Source of the DNA: Deltaproteobacteria bacterium | Lineage (GTDB): Bacteria > Desulfobacterota > Binatia > UTPRO1 | Assembly (NCBI GenBank): GCA_029262315.1 | Contig: JAJCZP010000265.1 | Location: 33,758-97,757, forward strand | Length of the DNA: 64,000 nucleotides | Direction: 5' to 3' | Part shown: piece by piece, positions 47,581 to 59,090 of the stretch | How positions within the stretch are numbered: the first letter of the stretch is position 1 | Layout: each line of letters starts with the position of its first letter | Translations under genes and position numbers: made by a program | Notes under the pieces: model-generated | Database searches by the model: none | Seen by the model: only the letters and a program-made list of their open reading frames with translations | What the model was told of the DNA's origin: nothing

Positions 47581-49590
47581 GTGGATGGGGTGACGTTGGT
47601 CTCAGGCGCCGTGCTGGTCACGGCGCTGGTGTTGCTGCCAGGGCGAGCTGTAGCGCGTTGTGTCGGTGTACCTAGAGACGGGTTCGCCGACACGCTGGTC
47701 GGCGTGGCCATGGTCTCGATTACCGGGCTGGTGCTGGGATGGCTGCAGCTGTTCTCGATCGCGTTCCTGGCCGGGATTCTGACGAGCGTCTGGATCGGTT
47801 GCACCGTTCTCGGTCATCGGAGATCCGGCGTTCGCGCGGCGGCATCGACGAGTCGAGCCGCACGCGTCGTTGCCGCCAGTATGGCGTTGGCGGCGTTCGC
47901 GTGGTGTTGGCCGCCCTTCGAGACCGTACTGGCGGGCGCGGATTCCAGCATGTACGTGAACGCGGGGATTCACCTCGCGCGTACGGGGTCACTGGCCGTC
48001 GAGAGCGATGCGGTTGCCGTTTTGGGGCCACGGACGAGCCATGGTGTGTTTCCGAGTATTCGCGCCGACGGGCGCGGTCCGTTCGTGCGTCTTCCCGGCG
48101 GTCTGCTGATGTCTGGCGCGGGCGACGCGCGCGCCCTGCCCGCATTCTTTCCGCTTCTCCCGGTTTGGACGGGGATCGCCACGCTCGCGTGGGGGCCGTC
48201 GGGTGCGCCCGCGATCGCTCCGCTCGCCGTGGCGCTGGCGGTGTGGGCTGTCGCACTCTTCGCTGCGGAAGCGTTCGGTGCTCTTGTTGGGGGCGTCGCG
48301 GGGCTGCTCCTGCTTGCGAACTTCTCCTTCTGGTGGTTCGGCCGTTTCCTCATGCCGGAACCGCTCGCCTGCGCCTTCGTCTGGGGGGCGCTGATCCTGC
48401 TTCGTCGCGGCGCGTTTACGACCGCGGGCGTGATCTTCGGTCTCGCCGGTCTGGCGCGGGCCGAGACGATGCTCTTCGTGGTCGCGGCGGTCGGGCTCTG
48501 GCTCGTGTGGGAGCGCCCGACCATCCGCCTCGATCGTCTGCTGCTGGGATTCGTCCCGATGGCCGCGCTCACTGCCTTCAGCTTGCTCGCGCTTCCGAGC
48601 CATCACGCGGCCTATCTGTGGAACGATGTCACGATGCTCGTTACCCGCACAGTGCGCGGCGTGCCGCTCGGGACGGCGTCGCTCGTCGTCGCGGTCCTCG
48701 TAGCAGTGTCGGGGCTGCTCGGCGTCCTGATGGCGCTGCGGACCCGGCGTCCCGGCGCGCGTGCGTTGCAGGTGTCGGGCGTCGTCGGCGTTGCCGCCGC
48801 CACGCTTCTCTACCTGCTGGTAGGCGGCAACAGCGATCCGGTCCGGTCGATTCGTTGGCTTGCCGCGTATTGCTCCTGGCCGCTTCTCGGAATCGCGGTC
48901 GCGGGCGCGACGGTGACCTGGCGTGCTGGCCGTGATCCCGTCGTGCGGTTGGCCCTGCTGCTGAGTGCGCTGGTGGCGCTGATCTTCGTCATCAACCCTC
49001 GGGTCGCGCCGTATCATCCGTGGGCCATTCGCCGCTTTCTGCCCATCGTGATTCCGGGAATGACGATTGCTGCCGCGGCGGCGGTGGGCGTCTTGGCGTC
49101 CGGGAGCCTACGCTTTCGCCGTGCCGCGGCCGGGATGATCGTCGTCGGCTTGGTGTTGCTTGAGGTTCGACCCGTTCAGGCCGTACGGGATCGTTGGTAC
49201 TTCTTCGGTGGGTTTCAGACGGTGGAGACTCTTGCGGAGATGTTGCCGCTCGACGCGTTGGTCATCGTCGACAGTTCGCTCGCGGATTCCCAGGTCCAGG
49301 TGCCGCTATGGCTCACTCACGGTCGTGAGACGGTCATGATGGCGGCGGAGACGCCGAATTGGCATGCGGCACTGTTCGCGTTGGTCGCGAGCGGCCGGCC
49401 CGCATACTGGATCGATGCTCGCTTCGCACCAGCGCCCAACGTGCCGGGCTTGTCGTTCGAGCTGGCGAAGCCCAATCCGGAGATCAGACTATTGCTGCCG
49501 AACTCGGGACTGGGTGGGCCTCCAGCGTTGACGATCGGGCGCCGATACCTGCTGGAGGTCTATCGGGTGACGCGCGCACCCGACTACTAG
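47581..49590 (+). CDS. polytopic GT-C-like membrane protein
   Basis: LAGADSSMYVNAGIHLARTGSL loop, many TM segments. Confidence 0.75.
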   Translation: MDGVTLVSGAVLVTALVLLPGRAVARCVGVPRDGFADTLVGVAMVSITGLVLGWLQLFSIAFLAGILTSVWIGCTVLGHRRSGVRAAASTSRAARVVAASMALAAFAWCWPPFETVLAGADSSMYVNAGIHLARTGSLAVESDAVAVLGPRTSHGVFPSIRADGRGPFVRLPGGLLMSGAGDARALPAFFPLLPVWTGIATLAWGPSGAPAIAPLAVALAVWAVALFAAEAFGALVGGVAGLLLLANFSFWWFGRFLMPEPLACAFVWGALILLRRGAFTTAGVIFGLAGLARAETMLFVVAAVGLWLVWERPTIRLDRLLLGFVPMAALTAFSLLALPSHHAAYLWNDVTMLVTRTVRGVPLGTASLVVAVLVAVSGLLGVLMALRTRRPGARALQVSGVVGVAAATLLYLLVGGNSDPVRSIRWLAAYCSWPLLGIAVAGATVTWRAGRDPVVRLALLLSALVALIFVINPRVAPYHPWAIRRFLPIVIPGMTIAAAAAVGVLASGSLRFRRAAAGMIVVGLVLLEVRPVQAVRDRWYFFGGFQTVETLAEMLPLDALVIVDSSLADSQVQVPLWLTHGRETVMMAAETPNWHAALFALVASGRPAYWIDARFAPAPNVPGLSFELAKPNPEIRLLLPNSGLGGPPALTIGRRYLLEVYRVTRAPDY

Positions 49591-49595
49591 CGGCG

Positions 49596-50138
49596 TCAGG
49601 GGCGCGGCGTCGGCGTCGGTAGACTGTCGATGTCGAGTTGGCGGGCGGTTGCCCACTCCTGGCGCGAGAAGACGATGAGCGCGAGCTGGACGTTGGCCTC
49701 GTCCCCGGCGGCATCTGTGCCGGTCACGAACACATCCATACGGCCGGTCTTCTCGAAGATGTGGGTCACGCGGTCGCCCGTGCCTAGTTCCGTGCCGTCG
49801 CCGAAGTTCCAGCTGTACGTGACGGGTGGGGTGCCGCTGAGCGCCGCCGCGCCAAAGTCCACAATCATTGGCGCATAGCCGATGAACTGCGTCGCATCCG
49901 CGTCGATCTCGAAGACATCGGGCTCGGTCGGCTGCATGAAGAACTGGAACCCGTCGACCACGATCGTTGCGTCGTCGTCCCCGATCTCGATACCGGGCGC
50001 TTCGATCCTCAGGGGGCCAGTCTTGGTTGCGGCGGGTGGTTCAGGAGCCGGGGCCGGTTGAGTCGCGGTCTCTTCATTGCGACTGCAGGAGACGACGGCG
50101 ACGAGTGACAGGAGGCAACACCACAGCGACAAACGCAT
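49596..50138 (-). CDS. PKD-domain lipoprotein
   Basis: lipobox LVAVVSC; PPVTYSWNFGDGTELGTGDRVTHIF. Confidence 0.78.
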   Translation of the reverse strand: MRLSLWCCLLSLVAVVSCSRNEETATQPAPAPEPPAATKTGPLRIEAPGIEIGDDDATIVVDGFQFFMQPTEPDVFEIDADATQFIGYAPMIVDFGAAALSGTPPVTYSWNFGDGTELGTGDRVTHIFEKTGRMDVFVTGTDAAGDEANVQLALIVFSRQEWATARQLDIDSLPTPTPRP

Positions 50139-50194: not shown

Positions 50195-50236
50195 CGACAA
50201 GGCCACCCGACCCCTGAGGGGTGGGTGGCCTTGTCG
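50195..50236 (-). terminator. strong stem-loop (14 bp + 5 bp, TGA loop) after the secreted-protein gene
   Basis: CGACAAGGCCACCC-G-ACCCC-TGA-GGGGT-GGGTGGCCTTGTCG, then TTTCTAG on the minus strand. Confidence 0.8.
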
Positions 50237-50266
50237 AGATGCAAAGTTGATGCGGTTGGAAGGATC

Positions 50267-50944
50267 TTAGTTCGGGAGATCCTTGAAGAAGACACCGCAG
50301 ACAGCGAAGTTGTTACCGTTCGGGTCGAGGACCTGAATGGAGACAACCTCAAGCGAGGTGCATCCCGGCAGTGGTGCGATGCCGAGACCGGCGATCAGCG
50401 TGTTCGCCGTCGTCGTGAGGGTGGCGTTTCCGTTCGTCATACCGAACGCAAACGGCGCCGGGAAGTCGATGATGGTCATATCGGTTCCCATACCCGGAGA
50501 CGTGACTACCGTGTCTTCGAGCGTGGTGCGCGCCAGGGTCGAGAGCGTGCCGGAGCCACTCGCCAACCCGCCGGTCTTGTCGATGATGCGACGGAGACGC
50601 ATCTTGACCTTGAGGTCGCGGGTGTTCGGGCCGAAGTTCCCCTGGATCTCACGGAACTGCAGTTTGCCGATGGAGCGCTGCTCCCACCACTGCCAGCCAT
50701 TGATCTGGCTACCAGCCTGCGCGTTGAAGGTTTCCGGCGGGGTACAGCCCGGGACGCCACTTGCGGACGTCGTGTTCGGTACGTTACCTGTCGGGTTACC
50801 GCAGGAAACGAATGCTTGGACGAAGTCGCACTTGAAATTCTTCGCCTTCCTCGGATGCTCGAAATCGCATCCCGCCTGGGCCAGATTGGCGGTGATTCCG
50901 AGCGCCACCACGGCCGCTAGAGCGACTAGCAGGTGTCTCTTCAT
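50267..50944 (-). CDS. hypothetical secreted protein
   Basis: signal peptide MKRHLLVALAAVVALGITANLAQA; SD AAGGAGG upstream. Confidence 0.85.
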   Translation of the reverse strand: MKRHLLVALAAVVALGITANLAQAGCDFEHPRKAKNFKCDFVQAFVSCGNPTGNVPNTTSASGVPGCTPPETFNAQAGSQINGWQWWEQRSIGKLQFREIQGNFGPNTRDLKVKMRLRRIIDKTGGLASGSGTLSTLARTTLEDTVVTSPGMGTDMTIIDFPAPFAFGMTNGNATLTTTANTLIAGLGIAPLPGCTSLEVVSIQVLDPNGNNFAVCGVFFKDLPN

Positions 50945-51130
50945 GGTTTGCCCTCCTTCTTGTGGGGGTTGGTTTAGGATGGCGACCACACGCGCAGTGG
51001 CTCGGTCTAGAACGACACATTGATGTTTAGCGCATGAATTCGTCATCACCGGTCTCAGCTCTTGAGCAGTCGTTAGGTCATGAGGATGCGAGGTACGGCA
51101 CCTCAAGTCTCATGCGACAACGCGGAGCCG

Positions 51131-51160
51131 AATATAGGAAGCCGGTCTTCTCTTTGTCAA
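51131..51160 (-). promoter_or_regulatory. sigma70-type promoter TTGACA-N18-TATATT with upstream T tract
   Basis: minus strand cgcgtttttttgTTGACAaagagaagaccggcttccTATATTcgg. Confidence 0.7.
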
Positions 51161-51433
51161 CAAAAAAACGCGCCCGGAAGACTATTATTTTCATGCACTT
51201 ATGCGAGTGAGTGGCAAATTCGCATGGTTTTGATTCAGTGCGCCAAAGAACTGTCTTGCACGTCTGCAAGTCTGACACCCCAGACGCTTGCCCGGCGGAT
51301 GTCAAAACATCTCGCACAGGCGCGAAGCTCGTAAACTACTGAATTGTAAGGGGTATCTCGATGGGCTGGGCTTCTCACAGCGTGGCGGGATGGCGTTGCC
51401 TGAGTGGTACGGATCGTGTACTCAAGGCCCCGC

Positions 51434-52051
51434 ATGCGACACATTCTCATACGGGTCCCCCTCCTGGCTATCGCCATCGCCTGGGTTTTGGCGGCATCCG
51501 TCCAAGCCAATTCCAATTCGACTATCCCGGCGAACACGAGTTCGGGAGAACGGGTTCTCTGGCTGCCTGAGGGCATTCAGCAGATCCAGCGCTCGCTCGC
51601 GGGCGAAATGCGGGATCCGGCCGAGCGTGTGGAACTTGCCCAGATCGTGCACAGCGAGAGCCAGGCACTCAGCATCGATCCTCTCTACGTGCTGGCCATC
51701 ATGAAGGTCGAGAGTGGGTTTCGCGCCGACGTCGTGAGCTCACGTGGCGCGATTGGGCTTCTGCAGGTACGGCCGATCGCGGCGCGAAGCGTGATGCGTG
51801 CCGAGAGCAGCCGAGACGAGCCGGTCCAAGCCGTGCGCCTCAGCGATCCGCAGACCAACGTCGCCTACGGGCTGCGTTACCTCCAGCAGTTGGAAGAACA
51901 GTTCTCCGACCAGGAGACCGCCCTCGCAGCGTACAACATGGGCCCGACACGCGTCCGACAGCGTCTGGCCGCTCGGAAGCCCGTGCCCAAGGGGTATGCT
52001 AAGAAGGTGCTATTGACGTACCGGGCGTTCCAGGCTGGCGCCGAGTCGTAG
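51434..52051 (+). CDS. lytic transglycosylase (SLT domain)
   Basis: AIMKVESGFRADVVSSRGAIGLLQVRP, AAYNMGP. Confidence 0.92.
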   Translation: MRHILIRVPLLAIAIAWVLAASVQANSNSTIPANTSSGERVLWLPEGIQQIQRSLAGEMRDPAERVELAQIVHSESQALSIDPLYVLAIMKVESGFRADVVSSRGAIGLLQVRPIAARSVMRAESSRDEPVQAVRLSDPQTNVAYGLRYLQQLEEQFSDQETALAAYNMGPTRVRQRLAARKPVPKGYAKKVLLTYRAFQAGAES

Positions 52052-53066: not shown

Positions 53067-54836
53067 GTGGGGGAGTTGCCTGGCAGCCCGCGCGCTGGTG
53101 AGAAGACGCGCACATTGTGGATCGCCGTCGCGCTTGCTGTGGCGGTTGTCGCGGCCTACCTCCCCGCGCTCGATGGCGAGTTCCTAGGCTGGGACGATAA
53201 CCTCTACGTCACCGAGAATCCTCACATTCGCGACGGACTGTCGGCCGAGACGGTTCGCGCCGTCGTCAGCACCGTACACACCGGCAATTGGATTCCGCTG
53301 ACGTGGTTGTCGCACGCCCTCGACCTCGAGTTGTACGGGCTCGAGCCGCGAGGGCACCATGCGACCGCGCTCGCGCTGCACGTGGCGAACACGATCCTGC
53401 TGTTGCTGATTCTTTGCCAGATGACCGGTGCGATCTGGCAGAGCGCCGTCGTCGCGGCGTTGTTTGGGCTCCATCCCATCCACGTCGAGTCGGTCGCGTG
53501 GGTTTCCGAGCGGAAGGACGTCCTGAGTACGGCATTCTGGCTGCTCGCGACGCTGGCCTACCTACGGTGGGTTCGCCGCCCGTCGGGCGCCCGATGGGGA
53601 GCCGTGGTTGTGGCGTTCGGGTTGGGGTTGCTTGCCAAACCCATGCTGATGACGTTTCCCTGCACCCTGCTTCTCCTCGATTCGTGGCCGCTGCGCCGGT
53701 TGTCGTGGCAGGCTGTCAGGGAAAAGCTGAGCCTCTTCGCGCTGGCGTTGACGATCGGGGGCGTCGCGTTCGTCGCGCAGCGGTCGGCGGGCGCCATGGA
53801 GTTGGCATCGCTGGTGGGTCCAGCCGATCGTGTGGCCAACGCGGTCGTATCGTATGTCCGCTATCTCGGTCTCGCGTTGTGGCCGGTGGGCCTTTCGCCC
53901 TGGTATTCGCATCCCGTGATCGAGGGGCCGCCGCTGGCACCTATGCAGATCGTCGGGGCCGCGGGTTTGCTGGCGGCGCTGAGCGGGCTCGCGATCGCCA
54001 CCCGCCAGCGTTGGCCGTATCTGCTGGTTGGTTGGCTGTGGTACCTGGGAACACTCTTGCCGGTGATCGGGCTGATCCACTTCGGGGCGCACGGGATGGC
54101 GGACCGGTACACCTACGTCCCGATGATCGGCCTCGCCATCGCCGTAGTCTGGGCTGGCGGAGGCGTGGTGGAGTGGGTCGGTGGCGTGATGGGGCGGGTC
54201 GGTGGCGTGGTGGGGTGGGTCGGTGGCGGCGCGCGATCGATCGCCGCGGCGCTCGTCGTTGCGTTGCTCGTCGGACTTGCGGCCGCGACGTGGCGTCAGT
54301 CGCAGGTCTGGCACGATTCGACGACCTTCTGGACCTCGACGATCGAGCGTAACCCGCGTTCGGGCGTCGGACACTACGCGCTGGCCAACATCTATACGCA
54401 GCAGCATCGTGTTCCCGAGGCCATGGCCCACTATCGGCGTGCACTCGAACTCCGCCCGGATCCGTGGAAGTGGCATGTGGAACTGGCCGAGCTGGCGTAC
54501 CGCCACGGTGACCGGGCAACGGCGCAGGCGCACTACGAACTCGCCATCGAGCGCCGGCCGGACGACGCCGTACTGCACGCGGGTCTTGGGAACGTCCTGA
54601 TGCAGGCGCGCCACGATATCGAGGCCCGCCGCCACCTCGAGCGGGCCATCGAGCTCCATCCCGATTTCGCCCAGGCCTACGATCATCTAGGAATAGTGCT
54701 GCAGCGAGCGGGGGAGCGGCGCGAGGCTATCCGTGCCTTCCGCGCCGCGCTTGCGATCGACCCAGGCCTTGCGTCCGCCCGTGCGAATCTGAACATGGTC
54801 CTATCCTCCATGCCCAAAGAAGACCGAGCTGAATGA
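53067..54836 (+). CDS. TMTC-like polytopic protein with C-terminal TPR repeats (GT-C fold)
   Basis: FLGWDDNLYVTENPHI, LFGLHPIHVESVAWVSERKDVLS; about four TPRs at C-terminus. Confidence 0.9.
   Translation: MGELPGSPRAGEKTRTLWIAVALAVAVVAAYLPALDGEFLGWDDNLYVTENPHIRDGLSAETVRAVVSTVHTGNWIPLTWLSHALDLELYGLEPRGHHATALALHVANTILLLLILCQMTGAIWQSAVVAALFGLHPIHVESVAWVSERKDVLSTAFWLLATLAYLRWVRRPSGARWGAVVVAFGLGLLAKPMLMTFPCTLLLLDSWPLRRLSWQAVREKLSLFALALTIGGVAFVAQRSAGAMELASLVGPADRVANAVVSYVRYLGLALWPVGLSPWYSHPVIEGPPLAPMQIVGAAGLLAALSGLAIATRQRWPYLLVGWLWYLGTLLPVIGLIHFGAHGMADRYTYVPMIGLAIAVVWAGGGVVEWVGGVMGRVGGVVGWVGGGARSIAAALVVALLVGLAAATWRQSQVWHDSTTFWTSTIERNPRSGVGHYALANIYTQQHRVPEAMAHYRRALELRPDPWKWHVELAELAYRHGDRATAQAHYELAIERRPDDAVLHAGLGNVLMQARHDIEARRHLERAIELHPDFAQAYDHLGIVLQRAGERREAIRAFRAALAIDPGLASARANLNMVLSSMPKEDRAE
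54162..54224 (+). repeat. in-frame 21-bp tandem repeat, 3 copies, inside the TMTC-like gene
   Basis: ggcgtggtggagtgggtcggt / ggcgtgatggggcgggtcggt / ggcgtggtggggtgggtcggt. Confidence 0.95.
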
Positions 54837-55567
54837 CCAAGACGGTCGCCATCATCCCGGCACGGTACGGATCGTCCCGACTTCCTGGGAAGCCTCTCGA
54901 GCAGATTGGTGGCCGCCCGATGATTCAGCGTGTGTACGAACAGACTCTGGCGGCGGAAGGGATCGGGCGGGTGCTCGTGGCGACGGATGATGCCCGCATC
55001 GCGGCCGCGGTGCGCGCCTTTGGGGGCGAGCTGGCCATCACTGGGGAGCACGCGACCGGCACGGATCGGCTGGCGGAGGTCGCGGGGACGTTGGACGCCG
55101 AGATCGTCGTCAACGTGCAGGGCGACCTGCCACTGATCGAGCCGGCCACCATCGCCCGCTGCGTGCGGCCACTCCACGACGATCCGAAGGCCGGGATGGC
55201 GAGTCCGATGACGCCCATTCGTGACCACACCGAGTTCGAGAATCCTCACGTCGTCAAGGTCGTGGTCGACGGCGAGGGCTGTGCCCTCTACTTTTCCAGA
55301 AGCCCGGTGCCCTATTGGCGAGGCGGAATGCCCGCCGGCGTGGTCGGCCGGCGCCATATCGGCATCTACGCCTATCGCCGGCCCCTGTTGCTGGAGCTCG
55401 CGCGGGCGCCGCGATCGGCTCTCGAGCAGGCCGAAGAGCTGGAACAGCTGCGCGCACTGGAGCGGGGAGTGCGCATTCGCATGATCGAAGTTGACAGTGC
55501 GCCTCCGGAGGTGGATACACCGGAAGACCTCGCGCGGGTGCGGCGCATAGTGGAGGGATCCGGATGA
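54833..55567 (+). CDS. kdsB: 3-deoxy-manno-octulosonate cytidylyltransferase
   Basis: IIPARYGSSRLPGKPLEQIGGRPMIQRVYEQ. Confidence 0.95.
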   Translation: MTKTVAIIPARYGSSRLPGKPLEQIGGRPMIQRVYEQTLAAEGIGRVLVATDDARIAAAVRAFGGELAITGEHATGTDRLAEVAGTLDAEIVVNVQGDLPLIEPATIARCVRPLHDDPKAGMASPMTPIRDHTEFENPHVVKVVVDGEGCALYFSRSPVPYWRGGMPAGVVGRRHIGIYAYRRPLLLELARAPRSALEQAEELEQLRALERGVRIRMIEVDSAPPEVDTPEDLARVRRIVEGSG

Positions 55568-55614
55568 GCATGAGGAATTCACATCCCCGTACGAGCCGTC
55601 TCGGCAACCCCTGA

Positions 55615-57273
<1,659 letters not shown>

Positions 57274-57276
57274 CAG

Positions 57277-58113
57277 GTGGCGGATCAGCACGCAGTTCAG
57301 GTTGGCCCTGTTACATTCTCGGCCTCGGCTCCGTTGGCTTTGATTGCCGGCCCGTGTGTCATCGAGAGCCGAGACTCCACGTTGCGCCATGCCGAGCGGC
57401 TACGCGATCTCACGCGCCAGCTCGGCGTACCGTTCGTGTTCAAGTCGTCGTTCGACAAGGCCAACCGGACCTCGGGCGCGAGTTTTCGCGGTCTGGGGAT
57501 GGACGCCGGACTGGCGATCCTGGACGAGGTGCGGCGCGAGCTCGGCGTGCCCGTGCTCACCGACATCCATGAGACGGCCCAGGTGCCGGCGGTCGCCGCA
57601 TCCGTCGACGTCCTGCAGACCCCGGCATTTCTCTGTCGCCAGACAGATTTTCTGGCGGCGGTCGTTGCGAGTGGGAAGCCGGTCAACGTGAAGAAAGGGC
57701 AGTTCTTGTCTCCGGTCGAGATGGAGCATGTGATTGCCAAAGCGACCTCGGGTGACAATCAACAGATTCTCGTCACCGAGCGCGGTACGAGTTTCGGCTA
57801 TCAAAATCTGGTGGTCGACATGCGCTCGCTCGCGATCCTGCGCGGCTTCGGCTATCCGGTCGTCTTCGATGCGACCCACAGCGTGCAGCTTCCCGGTGGT
57901 GCCGGGGGCGCTTCGAGTGGGCAGCGCGAGTTCGTTCCGACACTAGCGCGTGCCGCGGTGGCCGCGGGCGTTGCCGGCGTCTTCATGGAAGTGCACGAGG
58001 ATCCGGATCGCGCGCTCAGCGACGGTCCGAATTCGGTGCGGCTGGACGCGTTGCCGGCTCTTCTCGCGCAGCTCGTCGCGCTCGATCGGATCGTGAAGCA
58101 ATGGGACGTGTGA
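57277..58113 (+). CDS. kdsA: 3-deoxy-8-phosphooctulonate synthase
   Basis: [34 protein letters not shown]. Confidence 0.96.
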
Positions 58114-59090
58114 AGCAGGCGGGCGCACCCGCGCAGAGTCTCGGGCACGCACGTCGTGTGCTGGCGATCGAGTCGGCGGCGATCGATGCCGTATCCAATC
58201 GTCTCGACGAGGCATTCGTCCAGGCGGTCGACCTCATGGCCGCCTCCCAAGGGAAGATCGTCGTGACGGGCATGGGGAAGTCCGGACACATCTGTCGGAA
58301 GATCGCCGCGACGCTCGCGAGTACTGGAACCCCCTCGTTCTTTCTGCACTCGGCGGAAGCACTGCACGGGGATCTCGGGATGCTTGCCCGTCAGGACCTG
58401 GTACTGGCGATTTCGAATAGCGGTGAGACCCGCGAGGTCATCGACCTCCTGCCGGCGACCAAACGCCTCGGCGTGCCGCTGGTCGTGTTGACAGGAGACC
58501 CCGGCTCCACGCTTGGACGTGCCGCCGACGTGGTCCTCGACGTGAGCGTCGCCGAGGAGGCGTGTCCGATGGGCCTGGCGCCGACTGCGAGTACGACCGT
58601 CACCCTCGCGCTTGGTGATGCGCTGGCCGTTGTGCTTCTCCAGCAGCGCGGTTTTCGCTCTGAAGATTTCGCGACGCTGCATCCTGCGGGTGCGCTCGGA
58701 CGGAAGCTCCTTCGGGTCGCGGATCTCATGCACGTTGGTGCCGCGGTGCCGACGGTCGCGCTCGACGCCCCCATGCGCGACGTGTTGTCGGCGATTGGCT
58801 CCAAGGGATTGGGCACTACGTGTGTCGTTGATGCTGGTGGGGCACTTGCCGGTGTTGTGACCGATGGCGATGTGCGGCGGGCGCTCGCGGATGCGGAGGA
58901 TACTCTTGCGCGGACGGCGGCGAGTGTGATGAACGCCGCGCCGAAGACCATACCGGGGGACGCGTTGGCGGCGACCGCCGTCGCCCTCATGGAGCGGCAC
59001 GCGATCACGTCCCTGGTCATCGTCGACGATGCCAAGCGCCCCCTTGGCCTCATTCACCTTCACGACCTGCTGCGGGCGGGGGTCGTCTAG
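58101..59090 (+). CDS. kdsD: arabinose-5-phosphate isomerase (SIS + CBS)
   Basis: [39 protein letters not shown]. Confidence 0.95.

Follow-up and report, generated by a model that had tools for sequence, protein, structure and literature searches.

Strong monocistronic genes for envelope proteins, such as those for S-layer proteins, ompA and lpp, carry long leaders. The locus described here shares with them a dedicated strong sigma70 promoter, a long 5' untranslated region, a strong Shine-Dalgarno sequence, a signal peptide and a strong terminator, but its secreted product has no sequence or fold relationship to theirs and no S-layer or porin domain, and its abundance is presumed. The product of a constant neighbour resembles GT-C glycosyltransferases (PMT_2/ArnT-like enzymes and the LA_3751 family) in its multi-pass layout, in the residues D121 and S122 of an early loop and in remote sequence matches, all of which lie below the curated cut-offs. 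The mature secreted protein is, in its predicted model, all-beta apart from one short helix, as in carbohydrate-binding modules and other beta-sandwich domains; however, its best Foldseek match has an E-value of 5.4e-3, TM-scores by query length are at most 0.28 among the PDB matches listed, and Pfam gives no match.

We analysed this locus within a stretch of 64,000 nucleotides (the window), comparing it with 148 genomes of its class (Binatia/Binatota), with a phylum-level sample of 297 genomes and, at closer range, with five genomes of its own family (f1). The carriers form a group of uncultured bacteria from soil and groundwater. The source assembly (genome G000) consists of 298 contigs, spans 5.9 Mb and is 99.96% complete; UTPRO1 is one among seven orders of Binatota (PMC8262859). 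A scan of genome contigs with the secreted protein as the single query gave no match, and a second scan gave four named relatives. The closest relatives among named records are MAGs labelled 'Polyangiaceae bacterium UTPRO1', which NCBI places in Myxococcota, and 'Deltaproteobacteria bacterium'. The features of the locus are collected in Table 1.

Table 1. Features of the secreted-protein locus and its neighbours, in positions of the window.
Feature	Positions	Strand	Basis
Conserved element TCGCATAAGTGCATGA 5' of promoter	51191..51206	-	also 5' of the orthologous gene in five same-family genomes
Sigma70-type promoter TTGACA-N18-TATATT	51131..51160	-	11/12 consensus
5' leader, ~180 nt	50945..51124	-	sequence; relatives 135-285 nt
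RBS-proximal block GCCATCCTAAACCAACCC...AAGGAGGGCAAACC, includes Shine-Dalgarno	50945..50983	-	six-genome identity
225-aa protein, Sec signal peptide (AQA↓GC), beta-rich mature domain	50267..50944	-	ORF, alignment, model
Intrinsic-terminator hairpin, 14+5 bp, one bulge	50195..50236	-	-38.7 kcal/mol, z = -8.9
PKD-domain lipoprotein, lipobox VVSC	49596..50138	-	Pfam PKD_4 5.6e-10; synteny
Multi-pass GT-C-like membrane glycosyltransferase (predicted), constant neighbour	47581..49590	+	remote matches; adjacency
Lytic transglycosylase (SLT) gene, divergent local neighbour	51404..52051	+	Pfam SLT 4.6e-22

A preliminary description of this DNA had proposed a near-consensus dedicated sigma70-type promoter, a long leader with a strong Shine-Dalgarno sequence and a strong terminator around a gene for a secreted protein of no recognised family, and each of these features is borne out. 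The -35 hexamer TTGACA (51160-51155, minus strand) follows directly on a T7 tract and stands 18 nt from the -10 hexamer TATATT (51136-51131), a spacing within the 16-18 bp of sigma70-type promoters, with 11 of the 12 hexamer positions at consensus; the promoter suggests a transcription start near 51124. In a scan of 10 kb, the site at the secreted-protein gene was the better of 2 promoter-like sites, against 1.0 ± 1.0 in shuffled sequence, and in the whole 5.9-Mb genome the exact pattern TTGACA-N18-TATA occurs at 4 sites, compared with 1 for the reversed control pattern. Defining the core copy as each genome's copy adjoining the glycosyltransferase gene, we found this pattern 171-320 nt 5' of the ATG in 18/18 core copies, one copy per genome and always with the same N18 spacing; these are the genomes in which the promoter region is present, the core copy of G054 sitting at a contig end. 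The tree set contains 25 further family members, none of which has a promoter score of at least 10/12. Across genera the locus keeps its promoter, its leader with a constrained RBS-proximal block, its strong Shine-Dalgarno sequence and its terminator; across families, too, a promoter of this type, a leader and a terminator are kept.

The TCGCATAAGTGCATGA element lies 30 nt or more 5' of the -35 hexamer. Allowing at most one mismatch, we found a single site in the source genome and 0-2 sites per relative, the G001 copy having diverged and G002 and G005 each having a single additional one-mismatch site.

At the other end of the unit, the terminator has a short U tract at the source locus (UUUCU), while those of relatives end in UUUUUUU (L015) or a U-rich stretch (L017); equivalent hairpins 3' of the stop codon in the relatives that were folded have z-scores of -3.7 to -5.7. 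The unit had also been called stand-alone. This holds in part: a co-directional PKD lipoprotein gene (ATG ~50138) begins ~60 nt past the terminator and is kept in relatives, standing directly 3' of the terminator in 4 of the 5 same-family genomes, with the fifth locus ending at a contig edge. By eye, the lipoprotein gene has no clear promoter or Shine-Dalgarno sequence, and for this reason it may depend on read-through.

The secreted protein is read from an ATG at 50944 to a stop codon at 50269-50267 on the minus strand. Inspection of its N-terminus, MKRHLLVALAAVVALGITANLAQA followed by GC, reveals a signal peptide with a basic n-region, a hydrophobic core and an AxA site for signal peptidase I, and no lipobox; the cleavage layout AxA↓(Q/G)C recurs in many relatives. 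In an alignment of 42 sequences, cysteines C26, C48, C67 and C195 (precursor numbering) are invariant or nearly so, and an AlphaFold model built from this alignment has a pLDDT of 86.4 and a pTM of 0.82. Searches of Pfam and NCBIfam gave no match to the protein, nor did Pfam reveal an SLH or other known S-layer domain; sequence and profile searches of the PDB gave nothing significant, and Foldseek comparison with the PDB and BFVD gave no solved or viral structure at E≤1e-3. Judged by these searches, the 225-aa protein is the founder of an undescribed family. Within the class, 29 of the 148 genomes contain a match at E≤1e-5, of which 19 are strong (E<1e-30) and fall in just five families (f1, f4, f10, f14 and f16), and in the phylum sample all matches are confined to this class.

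The distribution of the GT-C-like partner is the same, strong homologues of the two proteins being found in exactly the same 19/148 class genomes. Because these genomes are related, and hence not statistically independent, co-occurrence alone is weak evidence; gene order, as compared between families, is better. The two genes adjoin in 18/18 genomes in which both share a contig (in G003 both are at contig ends, and this genome was left out). In f1 the secreted-protein gene is followed by the PKD lipoprotein gene and then by the convergent GT-C-like gene, while in f4, f10, f14 and f16 a GT-C-like homologue stands directly 3' of the secreted-protein gene, in tandem. Thus the adjacency outlived a rearrangement, and its survival through a change of orientation is, at the level of gene order, better evidence than co-occurrence. 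Outside the five core families, we observed remote homologues of both proteins adjoining in G012 (C12:95726-98243) and G118 (C219:6270-8797).

The assignment of the partner combines its multi-pass layout, seen by inspection, with a conserved D121, a nearly invariant S122 and three remote matches below curated cut-offs: to PMT_2 (2/13 members, 3.1e-4 at best), to a putative glycosyltransferase of the LA_3751 family (6/13 members, 4.5e-6 at best) and to the AZOBR surface-glycopolymer family. A sequence search for a solved relative found none. In families other than f1, runs of glycosyltransferase genes lie upstream of the unit in divergent orientation, and within the window CMP-KDO synthetase-like and flippase-like genes lie near it. 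The GT-C-like neighbour and the bordering glycosyltransferase runs together link the unit to cell-surface glycan synthesis. On the other side of the promoter, homologues of the SLT gene are present in G001 and G003. Further along, the product of 53067-54836 (+) joins a membrane N-terminus of GT-C-like type, with a weak match to PMT_2, to TPR repeats, and homologues of this protein (family F4) are found again close to the unit in other families. It is followed by an LPS-core precursor cluster adjoining the unit (54833-59090, +), with a CMP-KDO synthetase-like gene, a CTP synthase gene and two more genes, which, judged by position, resemble kdsA (57277-58113) and kdsD (58101-59090).

These observations are best explained, in our judgement with moderate confidence, if the locus is a self-contained and conserved module that expresses an exported, beta-rich protein with disulfides, one that belongs to the cell envelope or extracellular matrix and acts together with surface glycans. 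Export, promoter, terminator and the glycosyltransferase linkage follow from the sequence and its comparison among genomes; abundance, glycosylation, disulfides and location we infer. The near-consensus promoter would drive constitutive or high-level production, and the protein would be exported with no lipid anchor and would contain disulfides. It could then serve as an acceptor glycosylated by the GT-C-like enzyme, or as a structural or binding partner of a glycan that this enzyme helps to build. The terminator would insulate the unit, so that far more secreted protein would be made than GT-C-like enzyme or PKD lipoprotein.

A rather unlikely alternative is that the protein is a periplasmic or secreted carbohydrate-binding or glycan-export accessory protein made in modest amounts, with a constitutive housekeeping promoter and a leader that only stabilises the mRNA. 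Its position beside glycosyltransferase clusters would suit such a role, as would a faint structural similarity, short of significance, to carbohydrate-binding modules of the beta-sandwich type, but against CBM29 the query-length TM-scores are 0.11-0.13. The mid-range codon usage of the gene (CAI 0.646) would also agree with modest production. The ribosomal-protein genes of the source genome barely differ from its other genes, so codon adaptation is uninformative on expression there and we dropped it as a proxy. Against the alternative, TTGACA-N18-TATA, very rare in the genome, is kept specifically at this terminator-insulated gene. High expression of the secreted protein appears plausible, though codon usage lends it no support.

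The leader deserves separate consideration. The Shine-Dalgarno sequence AAGGAGGG (50958-50951, minus strand) lies within a block of constrained sequence: the 39 nt that lead up to the ATG show 74-94% identity across the six f1 genomes, compared with 42-72% at the gene's own 4-fold degenerate sites. The core of this block occurs at one site per genome, always at the secreted-protein locus. Since the block and the TCGCATAAGTGCATGA element are unique or nearly so in each genome, they are cis-elements of the secreted-protein gene and not regulon sites, and for the block the idea of a regulon was rejected. The suggestion that the gene might be leader-regulated may draw on the constrained RBS-proximal block, but a structured or riboswitch leader is unsupported: folding energies are no better than those of shuffled sequences (z -1.6 to +1.6), the consensus structure shows almost no covariation (covariation term +0.97), and an Rfam search of the leader gave no match at E≤1.

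It is nevertheless conceivable, though we consider it improbable, that the leader is a cis-regulator in which GCC-N-UCC of the block pairs with the Shine-Dalgarno segment GGA-G-GG(C/U) and gates translation on a signal, an arrangement compatible with the expression module favoured above. The block is conserved above neutral expectation and is paired with the Shine-Dalgarno region both in the consensus fold and in the local fold of the source locus. Yet the minimum-energy folds of most relatives do not use this pairing, a C-rich stretch 5' of a Shine-Dalgarno sequence pairs readily by chance, and, besides the shuffle-like folding and the empty Rfam search, the leaders of other families are unrelated to that of f1. 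That the block is instead the end of a short upstream frame (..AIPNQPDEGG*), translationally coupled to the main gene, is very improbable: although a stop codon adjoins or overlaps the ATG in 4/6 genomes, there is none in the source locus or G003, the N-terminal portions vary by frame, the candidate GTG starts have no Shine-Dalgarno sequence, and the block-to-ATG spacing (39, 38, 35, 35, 35 and 36 nt) shifts the frame between genomes, so that the conservation of the block is not that of a peptide, and an upstream ORF or N-terminal extension was rejected. We also dropped CsrA-type double GGA sites, sought by eye, because the source locus has no upstream GGA. In the nearly identical f10 leaders of L014, L015 and L059, two mutually exclusive folds are possible: one joins CUGGAA at the 5' end to UUCCAG, adjacent to the Shine-Dalgarno sequence, and the other joins UUUCC to GGAAA, covering it.

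What is new here is the protein family, the expression unit itself being of a known kind; the GT-C-like partner gene, the family of paralogues and the conserved gene order go beyond the preliminary description. Little has been described of the surface biology of uncultured Binatota, and a phylum-wide genome study makes no mention of 'S-layer', 'outer membrane' or words starting with 'secret' (PMC8262859). An exported family found clade-wide with one core copy per genome offers a specific candidate for a major protein of the envelope, and the secreted protein and its GT-C-like neighbour would form a testable enzyme-substrate pair. The promoter and leader could be used as an expression cassette in Binatota. 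The boldest reading, which we regard as distinctly speculative, is that an undescribed fold serves this Binatia clade as a main, glycosylated envelope or matrix protein, with its own dedicated GT-C transferase and with translation under the control of a new RBS-proximal leader element.

The core copy is not the only member of the family in the source genome, which contains five close paralogues, 42-87% identical, and two remote ones. The five extra copies (C131:2043-2711, C205:20460-21119, C40:94264-94914 and C221:66456-67882) have neither the promoter nor the leader, and the nearest, on C131, aligns with the source locus over the coding region only (690 nt, 85%). In the tree the core copies are not united as one clade, and the extra copies mostly group with copies from their own genome and generally have longer branches. 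On this placement the unit looks like an ancestral gene of which repeated duplications were made without the promoter. Separate expansions of the family are seen in several genomes (G040, G054, G110 and G112).
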